A program made the translations under genes and the position numbers. The notes beneath the pieces were generated by a model that made no database searches, was not told the DNA's origin, and saw only the letters and a program-made list of their open reading frames with translations. This document shows positions 1-8,109 of a stretch of DNA of 41,764 nt, in pieces. Numbering within the stretch: position 1 is the first letter of the stretch; each line of letters opens with the position of its first letter. This stretch comes from Candidatus Pacearchaeota archaeon (GTDB lineage: Archaea; Nanobdellota; Nanobdellia; Pacearchaeales; GW2011-AR1): contig JAGLOA010000006.1 of assembly GCA_023139205.1 (NCBI GenBank), forward strand, positions 1 to 41,764, read 5' to 3'.

Positions 1-410
1 TGTTGGTCTGTCTGTCTGTCTGTCTGAACCCCTCCATTTCCAGTGGAAATATGCTCATTTTTGGGCTTTAAAGGGCTAAAAAGCTCTTTTTCTGTCTGAA
101 TATTCTCTTTTATTGCTGAAAATTCCTTCTTATTTGTCGAAGTGTCTGTCTGTCTGTCTAAGGTATTTTTTTGGTTTTCAAGGATTTTTTTTAACAAAAG
201 AACAACTTCAGAATTTAATTTTAACTCTTTCTCTTGAGAAATTTTATTTTCCACGATCTTTGTTTTAACATCTGTTTTTCTTAAAAGAGATTTAATTTCC
301 TCTAACTCTTCTTTAAACAGCCCCAACTCTTGTTTTAAAACAAGAGTGTTATCATTGAGGGTTTCCATATCCTCTTTAACCCTATTAAAAGATTCTTTGA
401 TATTATCCAT
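1..410 (-). CDS. Partial (3' end off window) coiled-coil-like hypothetical protein containing QTDRQTD repeats
   Basis: Reverse strand from ATG at 410 reads MDNIKESFNRVKEDMETLNDNTLVLKQELGLFKEELEEIKSLLRKTD...TLDRQTDTSTNKKEF...GGVQTDRQTDQ with no stop to the window edge; missing from the ORF track because it is truncated. Confidence 0.7.
   Translation of the reverse strand, partial: MDNIKESFNRVKEDMETLNDNTLVLKQELGLFKEELEEIKSLLRKTDVKTKIVENKISQEKELKLNSEVVLLLKKILENQKNTLDRQTDTSTNKKEFSAIKENIQTEKELFSPLKPKNEHISTGNGGVQTDRQTDQ
27..49 (-). promoter_or_regulatory. ORB-like Orc1/Cdc6 binding site (TTTCCACTGGAAATGGAGGGGTT)
   Basis: Perfect 6+1+6 dyad TTTCCA-C-TGGAAA followed by a G-string, as in archaeal ORB elements. 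Confidence 0.6.
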
Positions 411-1228: not shown

Positions 1229-1486
1229 TTAGATTAAATCTTCTTCTGAGACAATAACAAAGTCTCCAATAGCAATAATAGAACTATAAGGAATTAAAAG
1301 TTCGTTTGAATTTGTTCTCTCTAAATTTAGATTTTTTGTGTAAGGTGTTGAATCTTTAACCACAAGGTTAATAAGTTCTCCAGAACGGGTTTCAAAAGTT
1401 ATGTCTTTAACAAAACCTAATCTTTTCCCTTCCTTAGTTACAATCATTTTTTCAAGAATTGCACTAAATGGATTTTTATTTTGCAT
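1229..1486 (-). CDS. PRC-barrel-like domain protein (85 aa)
   Basis: Sequence VTKEGKRLGFVKDITFETRSGELINLVVKD...LLIPYSSIIAIGDFVIVSEE fits the PRC-barrel pattern. Confidence 0.7.
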   Translation of the reverse strand: MQNKNPFSAILEKMIVTKEGKRLGFVKDITFETRSGELINLVVKDSTPYTKNLNLERTNSNELLIPYSSIIAIGDFVIVSEEDLI

Positions 1487-1570: not shown

Positions 1571-1595
1571 CTCACCCCTTGATTTCATATAGAAG
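1571..1595 (-). promoter_or_regulatory. ORB-like site (CTTCTATATGAAATCAAGGGGTGAG)
   Basis: Shares GAAAT-N3-GGGGT with the site at 27-49. Confidence 0.5.
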
Positions 1596-1616
1596 TATTT
1601 AAAAAAGAATTTATTA

Positions 1617-1671
1617 TTTATTATTTATTATTTATTATTATAAATATTTATATATTATATATTATATATTA
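1617..1671. repeat. Two heptanucleotide tandem repeats, TTTATTA x3 and TATATTA x3
   Basis: Direct reading of 1617-1637 and 1651-1671. Confidence 0.9.
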
Positions 1672-1674
1672 AAG

Positions 1675-1697
1675 TTTCCATTAGAAATGTAGGTGTT
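1675..1697 (+). promoter_or_regulatory. ORB-like site (TTTCCATTAGAAATGTAGGTGTT)
   Basis: 19 of 23 positions match the site at 27-49 by hand alignment; abuts the AT-only repeats. Confidence 0.55.
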
Positions 1698-1772
1698 TTT
1701 CTTTTTTAGTAGTTATAATCTTTTATATAATAAAATAATTTCTTTTCGTTGGGATATTTTTATTTTTATTTT

Positions 1773-1799
1773 TTTCCATAAGAAATAGACGTGGGGGTC
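1773..1799 (+). promoter_or_regulatory. ORB-like site with longer spacer, overlapping the GTG start of orc1/cdc6
   Basis: TTTCCATAAGAAATAGACGTGGGGGTC; dyad half plus G-string, spacer about 4 nt longer than the other sites. Confidence 0.4.
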
Positions 1800-3026
1800 T
1801 TTGATATAAATTTTAAAATGGTAAATGAACTTGATCAAATTTTTGAATCTTTTGATAAGAATAATATTTTTAGAGATAAATCAATTTTACAAACAAATTA
1901 TCGTCCAGAAGAAATTCCCTACAGAGATGAGCAGATAAAACAAATTGCCTCCATTCTTGCTCCTGTTTTAAGAGGTGAAAGAACAAGTAATCTTTTTTTA
2001 TATGGAAAAACAGGAACAGGGAAAACTCTTTCTGTTTGTTATGTTAAGGATGAATTACTTAAGAGAGTTAAGAAAGAAAGTGGTTTTAAATTAAAAATAG
2101 AATATTTAAATTGTAAATTAAAGAAGGTTTCTGATACAGAATATAGGATTTTAGCTGAACTTGTTAAGAAACTTGGAGGAGAAATTCCTTCAACAGGATT
2201 ACCTACTCAAGCTGTTTATAGTAAGTTTATTGAGTTAATTGATTCTGAAAAGCAGTTAATTGTTTTGATTTTGGATGAAATTGATCAAACTATGAAAAAA
2301 ATTTCTAACGATTTCCTTTATAATTTAACACGTCTTAACTCAGAATTATCTAAAACACAAATTTGTGTTGTTGGGATTAGTAATAATCTAACTTTTTTAG
2401 ATGAATTGGATCCAAGAGTTCGTAGTTCTCTTTCAGAAGAAGAAATTGTTTTTCCTCCTTATAATGCTTTACAATTACAGGGTATTTTAAATAAGAGGGC
2501 AAAGGAAGTGTTTAAAGAAGGGGTTCTTCAAGAAGGGGTTGTTGCAAAGTGTGCTGCATTTGCTGCTAGGGAGCATGGAGATGCAAGAAGGGCCTTAGAT
2601 TTGTTTAGGATTGCAGGGGAACTTGCTGAAAGAGAGGGAGCTAAAAAAATTTCTTTAAAATATATTGATGAAGCTAATGATAAACTTGAAAGGGATAAAA
2701 TATTGGATATTATTCGTTCAGAACCTAAACAATTTCAGTTTGTTTTACATTCTATAATTAGTTTATCTGAGAAAAATAAAGAAGAACCAATTTTTACAGG
2801 AGATGTTTATAATTTTTACCAAGATTTATGTTTAAAAAATAAACTTGAAGTTTTAACTCAACGTAGGATTAGCGATATTATTCAGGAATTTGACATGTTG
2901 GGAATTATTAATGTGAGAGTTATTTCAAAAGGAAGAGGAGGACGAATGCGTGAAATACGTTTAGCAATTACAAAAAATATTATTGAAAAAGCTAAGGAAA
3001 TAATTAAACATTCTTTGAATTACTAG
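1791..3026 (+). CDS. cdc6: Orc1/Cdc6 replication initiator
   Basis: Walker A LYGKTGTGKT, Walker B LIVLILDEID, sensor region VVGISNNLTFLDELDPRVRSSL, C-terminal winged helix; alternative start ATG at 1818. Confidence 0.95.
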   Translation: MGVFDINFKMVNELDQIFESFDKNNIFRDKSILQTNYRPEEIPYRDEQIKQIASILAPVLRGERTSNLFLYGKTGTGKTLSVCYVKDELLKRVKKESGFKLKIEYLNCKLKKVSDTEYRILAELVKKLGGEIPSTGLPTQAVYSKFIELIDSEKQLIVLILDEIDQTMKKISNDFLYNLTRLNSELSKTQICVVGISNNLTFLDELDPRVRSSLSEEEIVFPPYNALQLQGILNKRAKEVFKEGVLQEGVVAKCAAFAAREHGDARRALDLFRIAGELAEREGAKKISLKYIDEANDKLERDKILDIIRSEPKQFQFVLHSIISLSEKNKEEPIFTGDVYNFYQDLCLKNKLEVLTQRRISDIIQEFDMLGIINVRVISKGRGGRMREIRLAITKNIIEKAKEIIKHSLNY

Positions 3027-3029
3027 TAA

Positions 3030-4604
3030 ATGGATGCTCAAAAAATCTTAAAATTTTGTTTGGAAAAAGGTTTTTTAGTTGATAAAGAGGTTTTAAATTT
3101 GTTTAGCGAAACTTCTGATTTGGAATCTTTGGGATTGATTGTAGAGAAAATTAAGAGTCATACACAAAAAAGAATAATTACTAAACAGACTTTTTGTGAG
3201 AACCAAGATAAAGTTAATGAAGTTTTTTTAAGTCTTCCTGAGAAAAAACAAGAAAGTTTGGAAAAGTTGAAAATAAAACTTGGTTTGAGCATTGAGATTT
3301 CTCATGAAAAAAGAGTGGCTTTTGAAGAAAATGTTCCTGAAGAGGATGTTTGTCAAGTTAATCCTTTTTCCGGGGTAAAAATTCTTTCAAACCCTATTCA
3401 GCCAAATAAAAAGATTGAAGTGAAAGATTTTGTTTTACATTTTAAGAATAGATTTTCTGAATTAAGCAATATTTTACAACAACATTCTGAATTAAGTAAT
3501 TTGGTTTCAATAAATAAAATTTCAGGAAATCGGCAGGGAATTTCAATTATTGGGATTGTTTCTGATAAAAAAATCACTAAGAATAAAAATATTTTATTTG
3601 AAGTAGAAGATTTAACTGGAAAAATAAAGGTTTTGATAAACCAAAATAAACCAGAACTTTATAAAAAAGCAGAAGAAATCTCTTTAGATTCTGTAATTGG
3701 ATTTAAAGGTTCTGGTAATCGGGAAATATTTTTTGTTAATGATGTTATTTTTCCTGATTCAAAAATTTTTGAAAGAAAAAATTCTTTTGTTGAAGAGTAT
3801 GCTTTATTTATTGGTGATTTGCATTTTGGAAGTAAATTATTTTTAAAAGAAAATTTTCTGAAATTTATAGATTATCTTAATGGAAAGGTTCCTAACACCT
3901 TGGAGGTTGATAAGATAAAATATCTTTTTATTGTTGGTGATTTAATTACTGGTGTTGGAAATTATCCGAATCAGGAAAGAGATTTGAAAATAGTTGATCT
4001 TGAAGAACAATTTTCTGGGATTGCTGAATTATTGGGGAAGATAAGAAAGGATATTAAGATAATTATTTCTCCTGGAAATCATGATTGTGTTAGGCTTATG
4101 GAACCTCAACCTGTTTTTGATGAAAAATATGCCTGGCCTTTATATGATTTAGATAATGTTCTTTTAACTGGAAATCCATGTAATGTAAATATTGGGGCAA
4201 AAAAAGGATTTCTTGGATTTAATGTTTTAACTTACCATGGTTTTTCTTTTCCTTTTTATGCTAATAATGTTTCGAGATTAATGTTAAAAAAATCAATGAA
4301 TTCTCCAGAGGAGATTATGAAATATTTGTTGAAAAACAGACATCTAGCTCCGACTCATGCTTCTGTCCAGTATTTTCCTTTAGAAAAAGATGCTTTATTG
4401 ATAAGAGAAGTTCCAGATATTTTTGTTGCAGCTCATACACATAAAAGTGCTGTTTCATATTATGATAATGTTTTGGTTGTTTCTACTTCTTGTTGGGAAA
4501 GTATGACTCCTTATCAAGAGAAATTTGGTAATAAACCAGATCATTGTAAAGTCCCCCTGTTTAATTTGAAGACAAGATCTGTGAAGATCCTTGACTTTGA
4601 ATAG
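3030..4604 (+). CDS. polB: DNA polymerase D small subunit DP1
   Basis: OB-fold region then calcineurin-like phosphoesterase motifs GDLHFGS, GDLITGVG, SPGNHD, YHG, AAHTHKS. Confidence 0.95.
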   Translation: MDAQKILKFCLEKGFLVDKEVLNLFSETSDLESLGLIVEKIKSHTQKRIITKQTFCENQDKVNEVFLSLPEKKQESLEKLKIKLGLSIEISHEKRVAFEENVPEEDVCQVNPFSGVKILSNPIQPNKKIEVKDFVLHFKNRFSELSNILQQHSELSNLVSINKISGNRQGISIIGIVSDKKITKNKNILFEVEDLTGKIKVLINQNKPELYKKAEEISLDSVIGFKGSGNREIFFVNDVIFPDSKIFERKNSFVEEYALFIGDLHFGSKLFLKENFLKFIDYLNGKVPNTLEVDKIKYLFIVGDLITGVGNYPNQERDLKIVDLEEQFSGIAELLGKIRKDIKIIISPGNHDCVRLMEPQPVFDEKYAWPLYDLDNVLLTGNPCNVNIGAKKGFLGFNVLTYHGFSFPFYANNVSRLMLKKSMNSPEEIMKYLLKNRHLAPTHASVQYFPLEKDALLIREVPDIFVAAHTHKSAVSYYDNVLVVSTSCWESMTPYQEKFGNKPDHCKVPLFNLKTRSVKILDFE

Positions 4605-4641
4605 CTTAATACCCTAAAGGGTACGAGAGGTCACAAGTAAA

Positions 4642-7600
4642 ATGAAAACACAAGAATATTTTAAAAAAATTGAAAAAGATGTTAGAGAAATTTATGAAGT
4701 AGTTGGGGCTGCAAGGGCAAAGGGGTTGGATCCTGTTAATGAGGTTGAAATTCCTTTGGCAATGACCATGGCTGAAAAAGTTGTCGGACTTATTTCAACA
4801 ATTTATCCTCAGATGATGAATTCTGGAATTGCAAAAAGAATTCTTGAATTAGAAAAAGAATATGGGAAATTAGATACTACTGTTACATTTAAAATTGCAG
4901 AGGAGGTTGCTAAGCAAAAATTTTGCAAGTTTGAAAGTTTGTTGCAGGCGATTGAGGCTGGAGTAAGAATTGGTTTTGCTTATTCAACTTTGGGGGTTGT
5001 TTCTTCTCCTATTGAAGGGTTTACTGAATTAAAATTAGGGAAAACAAGAGATGAGAAAGATTATTTTATTGCTTGTTTTTCAGGTCCTATTAGAAGTGCA
5101 GGAACTACTGCTTCTTGTGTTGTTTTAATGTTAATTGATTATTTGAGGGAGATTTTTGGTTATGCAAAGTATGATTCTACAGAAGAAGAAGTAAAAAGAA
5201 CTGTTTCTGAGTTGACTGATTTTCACGAGAGGATTACTAATTTGCAATATATGCCAACTGAGGAGGAGATTATTTTTTTGGCGAAGAATATCCCTATTCA
5301 GGTTGCAGGTGATGCTTCAGAAAAACTTGAGGTTTCTAATTACAAGAATTTGGAGAGGGTGGATACTAATTTTCTTAGAAGTGGTTTTTGTTTGATTTTA
5401 GCAGAGGGTCTTGCACAAAAAGCAGCAAAGGGGTTTAGATTGTTAAAAGCAATTAAAGCTAATGGAATTAAATCAACTGGTTTTGATTTTTTAGAGGAAT
5501 ATATTAAGATACATGAAAAGAGAGATACTGGGAAAACAGATGATTCTCCTACTTATATTAAAGATCTGGTTGCAGGTAGACCTGTGTTTGGTCATCCTTC
5601 TAGATCAGGGGCATTAAGGTTTAGATATGGAAGAGGCAGGGTTTCTGGTTTTAGCGCATCTTCATTACATCCTGCAACAATGGCAATTACAGATGATTTT
5701 ATTGCTATTGGAACTCAATTAAAAATAGAGAAACCAACTAAAGGAACTGTTGCTACTGTTTGTGATTGTATTGAAGGACCAATAGTTAAGCTTGTTAATG
5801 GTAGTGTAAAAAAAATTAAGACAAAAGAAGAAGCAAAAAAAGTTTATTCTGATGTTGAAGAAATAATTTATCTTGGAGATATTTTATTCCCTTTTAGTGA
5901 TTTGGCGAATAGAAATTCTAATTTAATTAAACCAGGTTATGTTGAAGAATGGTGGGGATTGGATTTAAGGGAAAAGAATTTTGAGTTAGAAAAAGAAATA
6001 AACTATTTTAATGTTGATTTTGAAAATGCCGTCGAATTAAGTAAGAAATACAATATTCCTCTTCATCCTAATTTTATTTTTTATTGGACTGAAATTTCTA
6101 AAGAACAATTTTTAGGATTAATTGATTGGTTAAAACATTCAAGAGTTAGTGGAAAAATTATTTTTCCCTATAATCCTGCTGAACAGGAAAAGTTTGAATT
6201 GGGAAAAAGATGTTTGGAATTATTGGGTTTTGAGCATGATGTAACAATTGAAAATGTTGTTGTAAATGAGGAAAATAGCAAGGCTTTATTTGCAAATTTA
6301 GGAATTGATTTAAATATTTTAGGAAAGGAAGAATTTTTACTTTATGATGTTTTTGATGTTGATAAATTTGATTTAGATAAGTCTGTTTTGGAGACAGTAA
6401 ATTCTGTTTCGTATTTTGAAATTAAAGATAAAGCAGGGGATTTTATTGGAACAAGAATGGGAAGACCTGAAAAAGCAAAACTTCGAAAGTTGACTGGGAG
6501 TCCTAATGTTTTGTTTCCTGTTGGTAAAGAAGGGGGAAGGTTGAGAAGTGTGCAGGCAGCATGTGAAGAGGGGAGAGTCAGAAGCGCGTTTCCAATTAAT
6601 TATTGTGATAATTGTAAAAAGGAAACAATTTATTCTGTTTGTGAAGATTGCGGGGGCAAATGCAGGAAAATGTTTTATTTTTTTGAGACAAAAGAAAAAT
6701 CTTTTAATAAAATTGAAGAGGGTTTGGAGAGAGAAGGTATGCCTTATTGCAACCAGGATTTAGATATAAATCATTATTTTGAAAAGGCACGAGAGAAAAT
6801 TGGTTTTGATAAAAAGGATGTCCCGCTTTTGATTAAAGGTGTTAGGGGAACATCTTCTGCTGGGCATATGATGGAGAATCTTTCTAAAGGAATTTTAAGA
6901 GCAAAACATGGATTGCAGGTTAATAAAGACGGGACTATTCGGTTTGATGCTACTGAATTGCCGTTGGTTTCTTTTAAACCAAAAGAAGTTTTTGTGAGTA
7001 TTGAGAAACTGAAAGAATTAGGATATGATCAAGATGTTTTTGGAAAAGAACTTATTGATGAAAATCAGATTTTAGAATTAATGCCTCATGATGTTCTTAT
7101 CCCAAGTTCCCCTGAATCTCCTGATGAAAAAGGAGAAGATGTTTTTATGAATATCTGTAATTTTGTTGATGAACTTCTTGTTAAATTTTATGGATTAAAA
7201 CCTTTTTATAATCTTAAGAAAAAAGAAGATTTAATTGGACATTTTGGTGTTTGTATGGCTCCTCATAATTGTGCAGGAGTTGTTTGCAGATTTATTGGGT
7301 TTTCAAAAACTTTAGGTTTGTTTGCAAGCCCGTATATGCATGCTGCTATTAGAAGAGATTGTGACGGAGATGAAGCTGCAATTATGCTTTTGGGAGATGT
7401 TTTGTTGAATTTTTCTAGGAAGTTTTTGCCTAGTCATAGAGGAGGAACACAAGATGCTCCTTTAGTTTTAAATGCAAAAATTGATGCTGGAGAAGTTGAT
7501 GACCAGATTTTGGATTTTGAATTTGTTAATGAATATCCTCTGGAACTTTACAGACTTGCTGAGCAGAGAAAACATTCTTCTGAAGTTAAAGTTAATACTG

Positions 7601-8109
7601 TTAAGGATATTTTAAAACAAGGGAAAGACCCTTTTGTTAATATTGGTTTTACTCACGATACTTCTGATTTTAATGAGGGAGTTTTATGTTCTTCATATAA
7701 ATTGCTTGCGACAATGCAGGAAAAAGTTCAGCATCAGATGGAGCTTGTTGAAAGAATCAGGGCTGTTGATACTTCTGATACTGCGAGGTTGATTCTTGAG
7801 AGGCATTTTATCAGAGATATGAGGGGTAATTTGAGGAAGTTTTCTATGCAGGGTTTTCGGTGTGTTGCGTGCAATGAGATTATGAGAAGACCTCCTTTAA
7901 CAGGAGTTTGTCCAAAGTGCAGAGGGAAGATAATATTTACAATTCATGAAGGGGGGATAAAGAAGTATCTTGAGCCTGCTTTGGATTTGGCGAAGAAATA
8001 TAATCTCTCTCCTTATATTAAACAGAATTTAGAATTAATAAAAAGATATATTGATAGTATTTTTGGAAAGGAACTTGAGAAGCAAGAGAAATTGGGGGAG
8101 TGGTTTTGA
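4642..8109 (+). CDS. polC: DNA polymerase D large subunit DP2 (no intein)
   Basis: Contains SPYMHAAIRRDCDGDEAAIMLLGDVLLNFSRKFLPSHRGGTQDAPLVLN and Zn motifs CDNC..CEDC, CVAC..CPKC; uninterrupted 1155 aa. Confidence 0.97.
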   Translation: MKTQEYFKKIEKDVREIYEVVGAARAKGLDPVNEVEIPLAMTMAEKVVGLISTIYPQMMNSGIAKRILELEKEYGKLDTTVTFKIAEEVAKQKFCKFESLLQAIEAGVRIGFAYSTLGVVSSPIEGFTELKLGKTRDEKDYFIACFSGPIRSAGTTASCVVLMLIDYLREIFGYAKYDSTEEEVKRTVSELTDFHERITNLQYMPTEEEIIFLAKNIPIQVAGDASEKLEVSNYKNLERVDTNFLRSGFCLILAEGLAQKAAKGFRLLKAIKANGIKSTGFDFLEEYIKIHEKRDTGKTDDSPTYIKDLVAGRPVFGHPSRSGALRFRYGRGRVSGFSASSLHPATMAITDDFIAIGTQLKIEKPTKGTVATVCDCIEGPIVKLVNGSVKKIKTKEEAKKVYSDVEEIIYLGDILFPFSDLANRNSNLIKPGYVEEWWGLDLREKNFELEKEINYFNVDFENAVELSKKYNIPLHPNFIFYWTEISKEQFLGLIDWLKHSRVSGKIIFPYNPAEQEKFELGKRCLELLGFEHDVTIENVVVNEENSKALFANLGIDLNILGKEEFLLYDVFDVDKFDLDKSVLETVNSVSYFEIKDKAGDFIGTRMGRPEKAKLRKLTGSPNVLFPVGKEGGRLRSVQAACEEGRVRSAFPINYCDNCKKETIYSVCEDCGGKCRKMFYFFETKEKSFNKIEEGLEREGMPYCNQDLDINHYFEKAREKIGFDKKDVPLLIKGVRGTSSAGHMMENLSKGILRAKHGLQVNKDGTIRFDATELPLVSFKPKEVFVSIEKLKELGYDQDVFGKELIDENQILELMPHDVLIPSSPESPDEKGEDVFMNICNFVDELLVKFYGLKPFYNLKKKEDLIGHFGVCMAPHNCAGVVCRFIGFSKTLGLFASPYMHAAIRRDCDGDEAAIMLLGDVLLNFSRKFLPSHRGGTQDAPLVLNAKIDAGEVDDQILDFEFVNEYPLELYRLAEQRKHSSEVKVNTVKDILKQGKDPFVNIGFTHDTSDFNEGVLCSSYKLLATMQEKVQHQMELVERIRAVDTSDTARLILERHFIRDMRGNLRKFSMQGFRCVACNEIMRRPPLTGVCPKCRGKIIFTIHEGGIKKYLEPALDLAKKYNLSPYIKQNLELIKRYIDSIFGKELEKQEKLGEWF

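Follow-up and report, generated by a model that had tools for sequence, protein, structure and literature searches.

Archaeal replication origins of the oriC1 type, as in Sulfolobus, Pyrococcus and haloarchaea, have an orc1/cdc6 gene as neighbour and opposite-polarity ORB sites around an AT-rich unwinding region (PMC12141716, PMC6742236); ORBs flanking a DNA unwinding element (DUE) are often of opposite polarity (PMC6742236). The locus described here shares these features. Unlike the oriC1 type, its lineage has a hypervariable spacer, a near-fixed direct pair of sites (ORB2 and ORB3) around the probable orc1 promoter, and a distant ORB (ORB4) inside a gene. The published archaeal ORB consensus is CTTCCAGTGGAAACGAAAGGGGT (PMC4153887). 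The Methanomassiliicoccales (Ca. M. alvus) resemble our locus in having ORB pairs about 1.8 kb apart and a gap ahead of the G-string that is shorter by one base (TTTCCACTGGAAACAG-AGGGGT), but differ in that the pairs are found on both sides of orc1, upstream and downstream, and the passage on that origin mentions no intragenic ORB (PMC4153887).

Three further systems offer partial parallels. In Haloarcula hispanica, as here, additional initiator sites lie outside the origin and near the initiator gene, but oriC2D consists of 11 intergenic ORBs, whereas the present lineage usually has one, intragenic and accompanied by a repeat array (PMC3936714). The ucm of Sulfolobus, which we liken to our locus by its description and not by its letters, is a conserved non-ORB sequence within the origin, located in the DUE between inverted ORBs (PMC12141716). 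The bacterial DnaA box with its DnaA-trios combines, like ORB4, an initiator site with a short-period repeat after it (PMC6742236); the array beside ORB4, however, has a period of 4 (NNCA), is not AT-rich and lies kilobases from the AT core, and no homology is implied. A comparative anatomy of a DPANN origin did not turn up in our searches of the open-access literature.

Arrangement of ORB sites upstream of orc1

The stretch analysed (the window) is one whole contig of 41,764 nucleotides from an assembly of 720,764 bases in 21 contigs. The orc1/cdc6 initiator gene (1818-3026, plus strand; PF09079, 1.2e-26; TIGR02928, 409 bits) adjoins the candidate origin and was the single match, and thus the sole copy found, in a search of the assembly. 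It is followed on the same strand by the genes for the small (DP1, 3030-4604) and large (DP2, 4642-8109) subunits of DNA polymerase D, which together occupy 3030-8109. Divergent from orc1 lies a PRC-barrel protein gene (1229-1486, minus strand; PF05239, 3.7e-8), so that the strand switch seen in the first-pass annotation, with minus genes on the left and orc1 on the right, is indeed present. Scanning the window against Rfam and for tRNAs gave no match. A scan for Orc1 yielded 73 loci of relatives, and the upstream regions analysed were those of the window and 59 of these (60 in total). Of the 15 genomes belonging to other orders, most (G054, G084, G092 and others) carry a second, distant orc1-like gene of 27-34% identity, unlike the window's order.

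ORB sites were scored with a weight matrix trained on the ORB2 sites of the relatives and of the window itself. ORB1 (CTTCTATATGAAATCAAGGGGT, 1574-1595, minus strand, 14.9 bits) has a polarity opposite to that of the other two sites upstream of orc1, its dyad facing the AT core and its G-string pointing outward. ORB2 (TTTCCATTAGAAATGTAGGTGT, 1675-1696, plus strand) reaches 33.1 bits, as a member of the training set, and ORB3 (TTTCCATAAGAAATAGACGTGG, 1773-1794, plus strand, 23.1 bits) is its direct repeat, with starts 98 bp apart. Outside these sites and ORB4, the top score across the 41.8 kb is 7.2 bits, and the three ORB-like sites first noticed here, one on the minus strand to the left and two on the plus strand to the right, are therefore well above background. 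Compared with the published consensus, all four sites of the window have both the dyad and the G-string.

Alignment across relatives, proposed at the outset as a check, found the ORB sites conserved in nearly all of the 60 loci. The ORB2/ORB3 pair occurs in 58/60, and the distance between the two starts is 96-100 bp in 57 of these 58; ORB1 was found in 44/60 upstream regions, several of the remaining ones being truncated, and its distance to ORB2 ranges from 101 to 690 bp among those 44. Judged from the aligned sequences, the conserved anatomy is a left module (ORB1 with an AT element), a hypervariable spacer and a right module (ORB2-ORB3).

The middle block of the right module (1697-1751, plus strand) consists of a T-rich tract, AGTAGTTATAA (1708-1718), the TATA-like TTTATATAA (1722-1730) and TCGTTG (1746-1751), and the 58-locus profile shows it to be strongly conserved, as TTTCTTTTTTAGTRGTYATAA, the same TATA-like element and TCGTTG. 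From its spacing, this block is probably the orc1 core promoter with the start site, expected at about 1748. ORB2 and ORB3, whose starts are about 98 bp apart, would thus straddle the probable promoter, and Orc1 bound there should therefore repress its own gene. In the order's other families the middle block is different, with the likely promoter placed behind ORB3; such autorepression may thus be limited to the window's family. Upstream of orc1 at L238-L247, from several of those other families, the block between ORB2 and ORB3 reads TTACTTTTRTTTCGTGACGAC, unlike that of the window's family. We also considered AGTRGTYATAANNNTTTATA as an order-wide origin element and rejected it, as it is absent from the order's other families that were read; outside the order it has five exact matches, with no orc1 nearby, which look like upstream regions of other genes.

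The AT-only tract and the case for an origin

Between ORB1 and ORB2, and hence flanked by ORBs of opposite polarity, lies an AT-only tract (1608-1673), the candidate DNA unwinding element. Its length, earlier put at 61 nt, is 66 nt; the three TATATTA repeats reported before are in place (1651, 1658 and 1665, ending at 1671), while TTTATTA, counted as three copies, is repeated four times in tandem (1610, 1617, 1624 and 1631, ending at 1637). No other AT run of the window is longer than 24 nt; the maximum in 200 first-order Markov simulations was 38. The window's least stable 60 bp begin at 1612 (-48.8 kcal/mol), the runner-up having -57.9 kcal/mol.

What is conserved here in relatives is a second unit beside ORB1, an AT element (1635-1670 in the window) at a fixed distance from that site, which ends in the relatives' consensus TTTATAAAAATTTATATTATATAGTATATA according to a 43-locus conservation profile and is also kept in the order's other families. 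It is the strongest candidate for an unwinding element. We rejected the tandem heptamers as the unwinding signal of the lineage, as they are not conserved as such in the aligned relatives. The heptamers are local, although the second block overlies the conserved AT element. They look like a core in the window because the spacer between the left and right modules, hypervariable and of low complexity elsewhere, is almost absent there. DnaA-trio-like TAG/TAA triplet repeats were likewise discarded as a core element, being present in just 12/44 spacers; the spacers of L006, L016, L020 and L030 contain long TAG or TAA triplet arrays.

As the genome of the window is too fragmented for skew analysis, three near-complete relatives (G001, G002 and G003) were used instead. 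Plain cumulative GC skew was uninformative, since it tracks gene orientation, and we therefore fitted two breakpoints to third-codon skew from which gene orientation had been removed; such a fit does not distinguish origin from terminus. Taking the better of two measures for each genome, a breakpoint lies 1.5 kb from the ORBs in G002 (GC3), 2.5 kb in G003 (TA3) and 7.3 kb in G001 (TA3), and the chance of such closeness, for the better of two measures and uncorrected, is 0.011, 0.019 and 0.047, respectively. The fits of the better measure were well above shuffled nulls in each genome; in G002 the TA3 fit was no better than the null and the signal is in GC3 only. The first-pass annotation had named a skew minimum or read-depth peak elsewhere, together with loss of the sites in close relatives, as what would speak against its origin reading. 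The sites are kept in relatives and the corrected-skew breakpoints lie 1.5-7.3 kb from the ORBs.

With the sole orc1 adjacent, DP1 and DP2 downstream, conserved sites and skew breakpoints near the ORBs in three relatives, the earlier proposal of a candidate origin gains support, and the region 1571-1799 is very probably the oriC of a Pacearchaeota-like DPANN archaeon. Against this reading stand the weakness of ORB1, the poorest of the sites, and the variation of its distance from ORB2 (101-690 bp), which makes the two an inverted pair without fixed geometry. Genome-wide, matches to the ORB pattern are almost confined to oriC and to the intragenic site in a winged-helix gene. Orc1 monomers would bind, in opposite polarity, ORB1 and ORB2 with the AT-only tract between these sites. 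By analogy with other archaea, they would underwind this tract and so let in two MCM hexamers for bidirectional replication (PMC6742236, PMC12141716).

It could be argued that the upstream region is nothing but an autoregulated promoter region for orc1 (and for the PRC-barrel gene divergent from it), with replication starting elsewhere or without an origin, since the strongest conservation covers the TATA-like element and the probable start site, and some archaea get by without using their oriC (PMC11005403). We consider this improbable, because skew breakpoints are close to the ORBs in three relatives, the conserved AT element keeps its distance from ORB1 outside the orc1 promoter, and the ORBs are retained in families whose likely promoter has moved to after ORB3.

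A fourth ORB inside a winged-helix gene

The first-pass annotation spoke of four sites while listing three; the fourth is real. ORB4 (TTTCCACTGGAAATGGAGGGGT, 28-49, minus strand, 29.4 bits) lies 1.8 kb from the origin, inside a coding gene, and is the closest of the window's four ORBs to the published archaeal consensus. The gene, of which the window holds the 5' part (3-410, minus strand) up to the contig end, encodes a coiled coil and a winged helix resembling MarR-type domains, with a linker of predicted disorder between them in which ORB4 is located. Directly after the G-string of ORB4 follows a (GACA)n array with CA every 4 nt (3-27, minus strand). As the contig ends inside this array and the winged-helix part of the gene was not found elsewhere in the window's assembly, the array probably broke the assembly. 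Contigs of several relatives likewise begin close to orc1, 0-750 bp upstream of it.

The winged-helix protein is present in 49/55 genomes of the order, and in most relatives it is encoded by a single gene near oriC. Most relatives with enough upstream sequence share the intragenic ORB, mostly 1.7-3.5 kb from orc1 and always on the minus strand. L069 has its sole strong distant site on the plus strand, and this site falls outside the frame test of the winged-helix gene. In the order's other families the distance from the gene to orc1 is 7-15 kb when they share a contig, and the ORB is kept with the same codons. In other orders of the class, homologues carried a mid-gene ORB at 16/16 loci examined (L286-L301), a set in which L286 belongs to the window's order and L291 is weak at 10.3 bits; in the genomes of those orders orc1 is 4.7-34 kb from the intragenic ORB where they share a contig. 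At the winged-helix gene of L298 and L300 there are two ORB copies, separated by about 335 bp; one is within the open frame of the gene and the other 104 bp outside it. In G291, G296, G054 and others the intragenic ORB is directed away from the origin (same-contig cases), even with the gene downstream of orc1, which may simply follow from the strand of the gene.

In many lineages the array has CA at every fourth base, and its wording varies, with GACA in the window and AACA, ATCA, TTCA, TGCA or GCAC elsewhere, and further lineages have CA-rich repeats of a longer period. In 49/73 loci the array beside the ORB is the longest such run of the locus, a count in which the site picked in L231 is the origin ORB and not the intragenic one. 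Slippage at a simple repeat could homogenise the units, without explaining why arrays recur beside the ORB in different words.

Codon usage separates the DNA from the peptide. The Ser codon is TCC in 38/38 loci, against a background usage of 7%, the second Gly codon is GGG in 37/38 (background 21%), and the Asp just after is GAC in 33/33 (background 21%), whereas equally conserved residues of the winged helix use codons near background. In four loci (L298, L299, L300 and L301) the ORB is read in a different frame, giving VPQEIKGS or similar instead of SSTGNKGV. With these rare codons frozen and another frame in use, it is therefore the DNA and not the peptide that is conserved, and selection acts on ORB4 and its array as a DNA element in its own right.

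Possible roles of the intragenic site

Most likely, given its form, ORB4 binds Orc1, and our best guess is that it is an origin-proximal Orc1-binding control site. Together with the CA array it might conceivably set the level of free Orc1 or regulate its host gene. We lean, with some reserve, towards a class-wide compound element, namely a canonical ORB with a CA-every-4-nt array in an origin-proximal winged-helix gene, selected as DNA beyond the peptide and acting as a remote site for Orc1-dependent control or for segregation, a type for which the papers searched offer no archaeal example.

Two narrower roles deserve weighing. Titration of Orc1, as by the ORB cluster downstream of Haloarcula oriC2 for Cdc6E, is possible but doubtful: an extra ORB near but outside the origin fits such known control (PMC3936714), but one site (two in some families) stands against 11 in Haloarcula, a single distant ORB would be weak, and the CA array and fixed host gene would be left unexplained. 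Titration regions of the oriC2D or datA type are clusters of many initiator sites, and the intragenic ORB is single, or double in some families.

Slightly less favoured, and on the whole unlikely, is that ORB4 and the array form a parS-like site to which the winged-helix protein itself would bind, with a role in origin-proximal chromosome segregation. In B. subtilis a parS site lies within spo0J, and here too the site would be within its own gene, which is single and near oriC in most relatives and encodes a coiled coil with a MarR-like winged helix; the ORB form, with dyad and G-string spaced as at oriC, nevertheless suggests Orc1.

An mRNA element is improbable: the sequence is always in the coding strand, in one orientation, and TTTCC...GGAAA can form a short hairpin, but the same sequence, G-string included, occurs in either orientation upstream of orc1, as would be expected of a DNA-binding site. 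Conservation for the peptide (STGNxGV...) can hardly be maintained, even though most members share it, in view of the invariant rare codons, the second frame in L298-L301 and the position of the peptide in the linker, for which disorder is predicted.

Our searches of the open-access literature brought up no intragenic ORB, and a conserved initiator-binding signal inside a nearby protein gene appears to be new. The anatomy of a DPANN origin can now be read in dozens of genomes, its rigid parts being ORB1 with the AT element and the ORB2-promoter-ORB3 unit, and its free parts the spacer and the heptamers. As the intragenic ORB suggests, control of the initiator in these reduced genomes may run via a second, remote site beside a conserved winged-helix protein.
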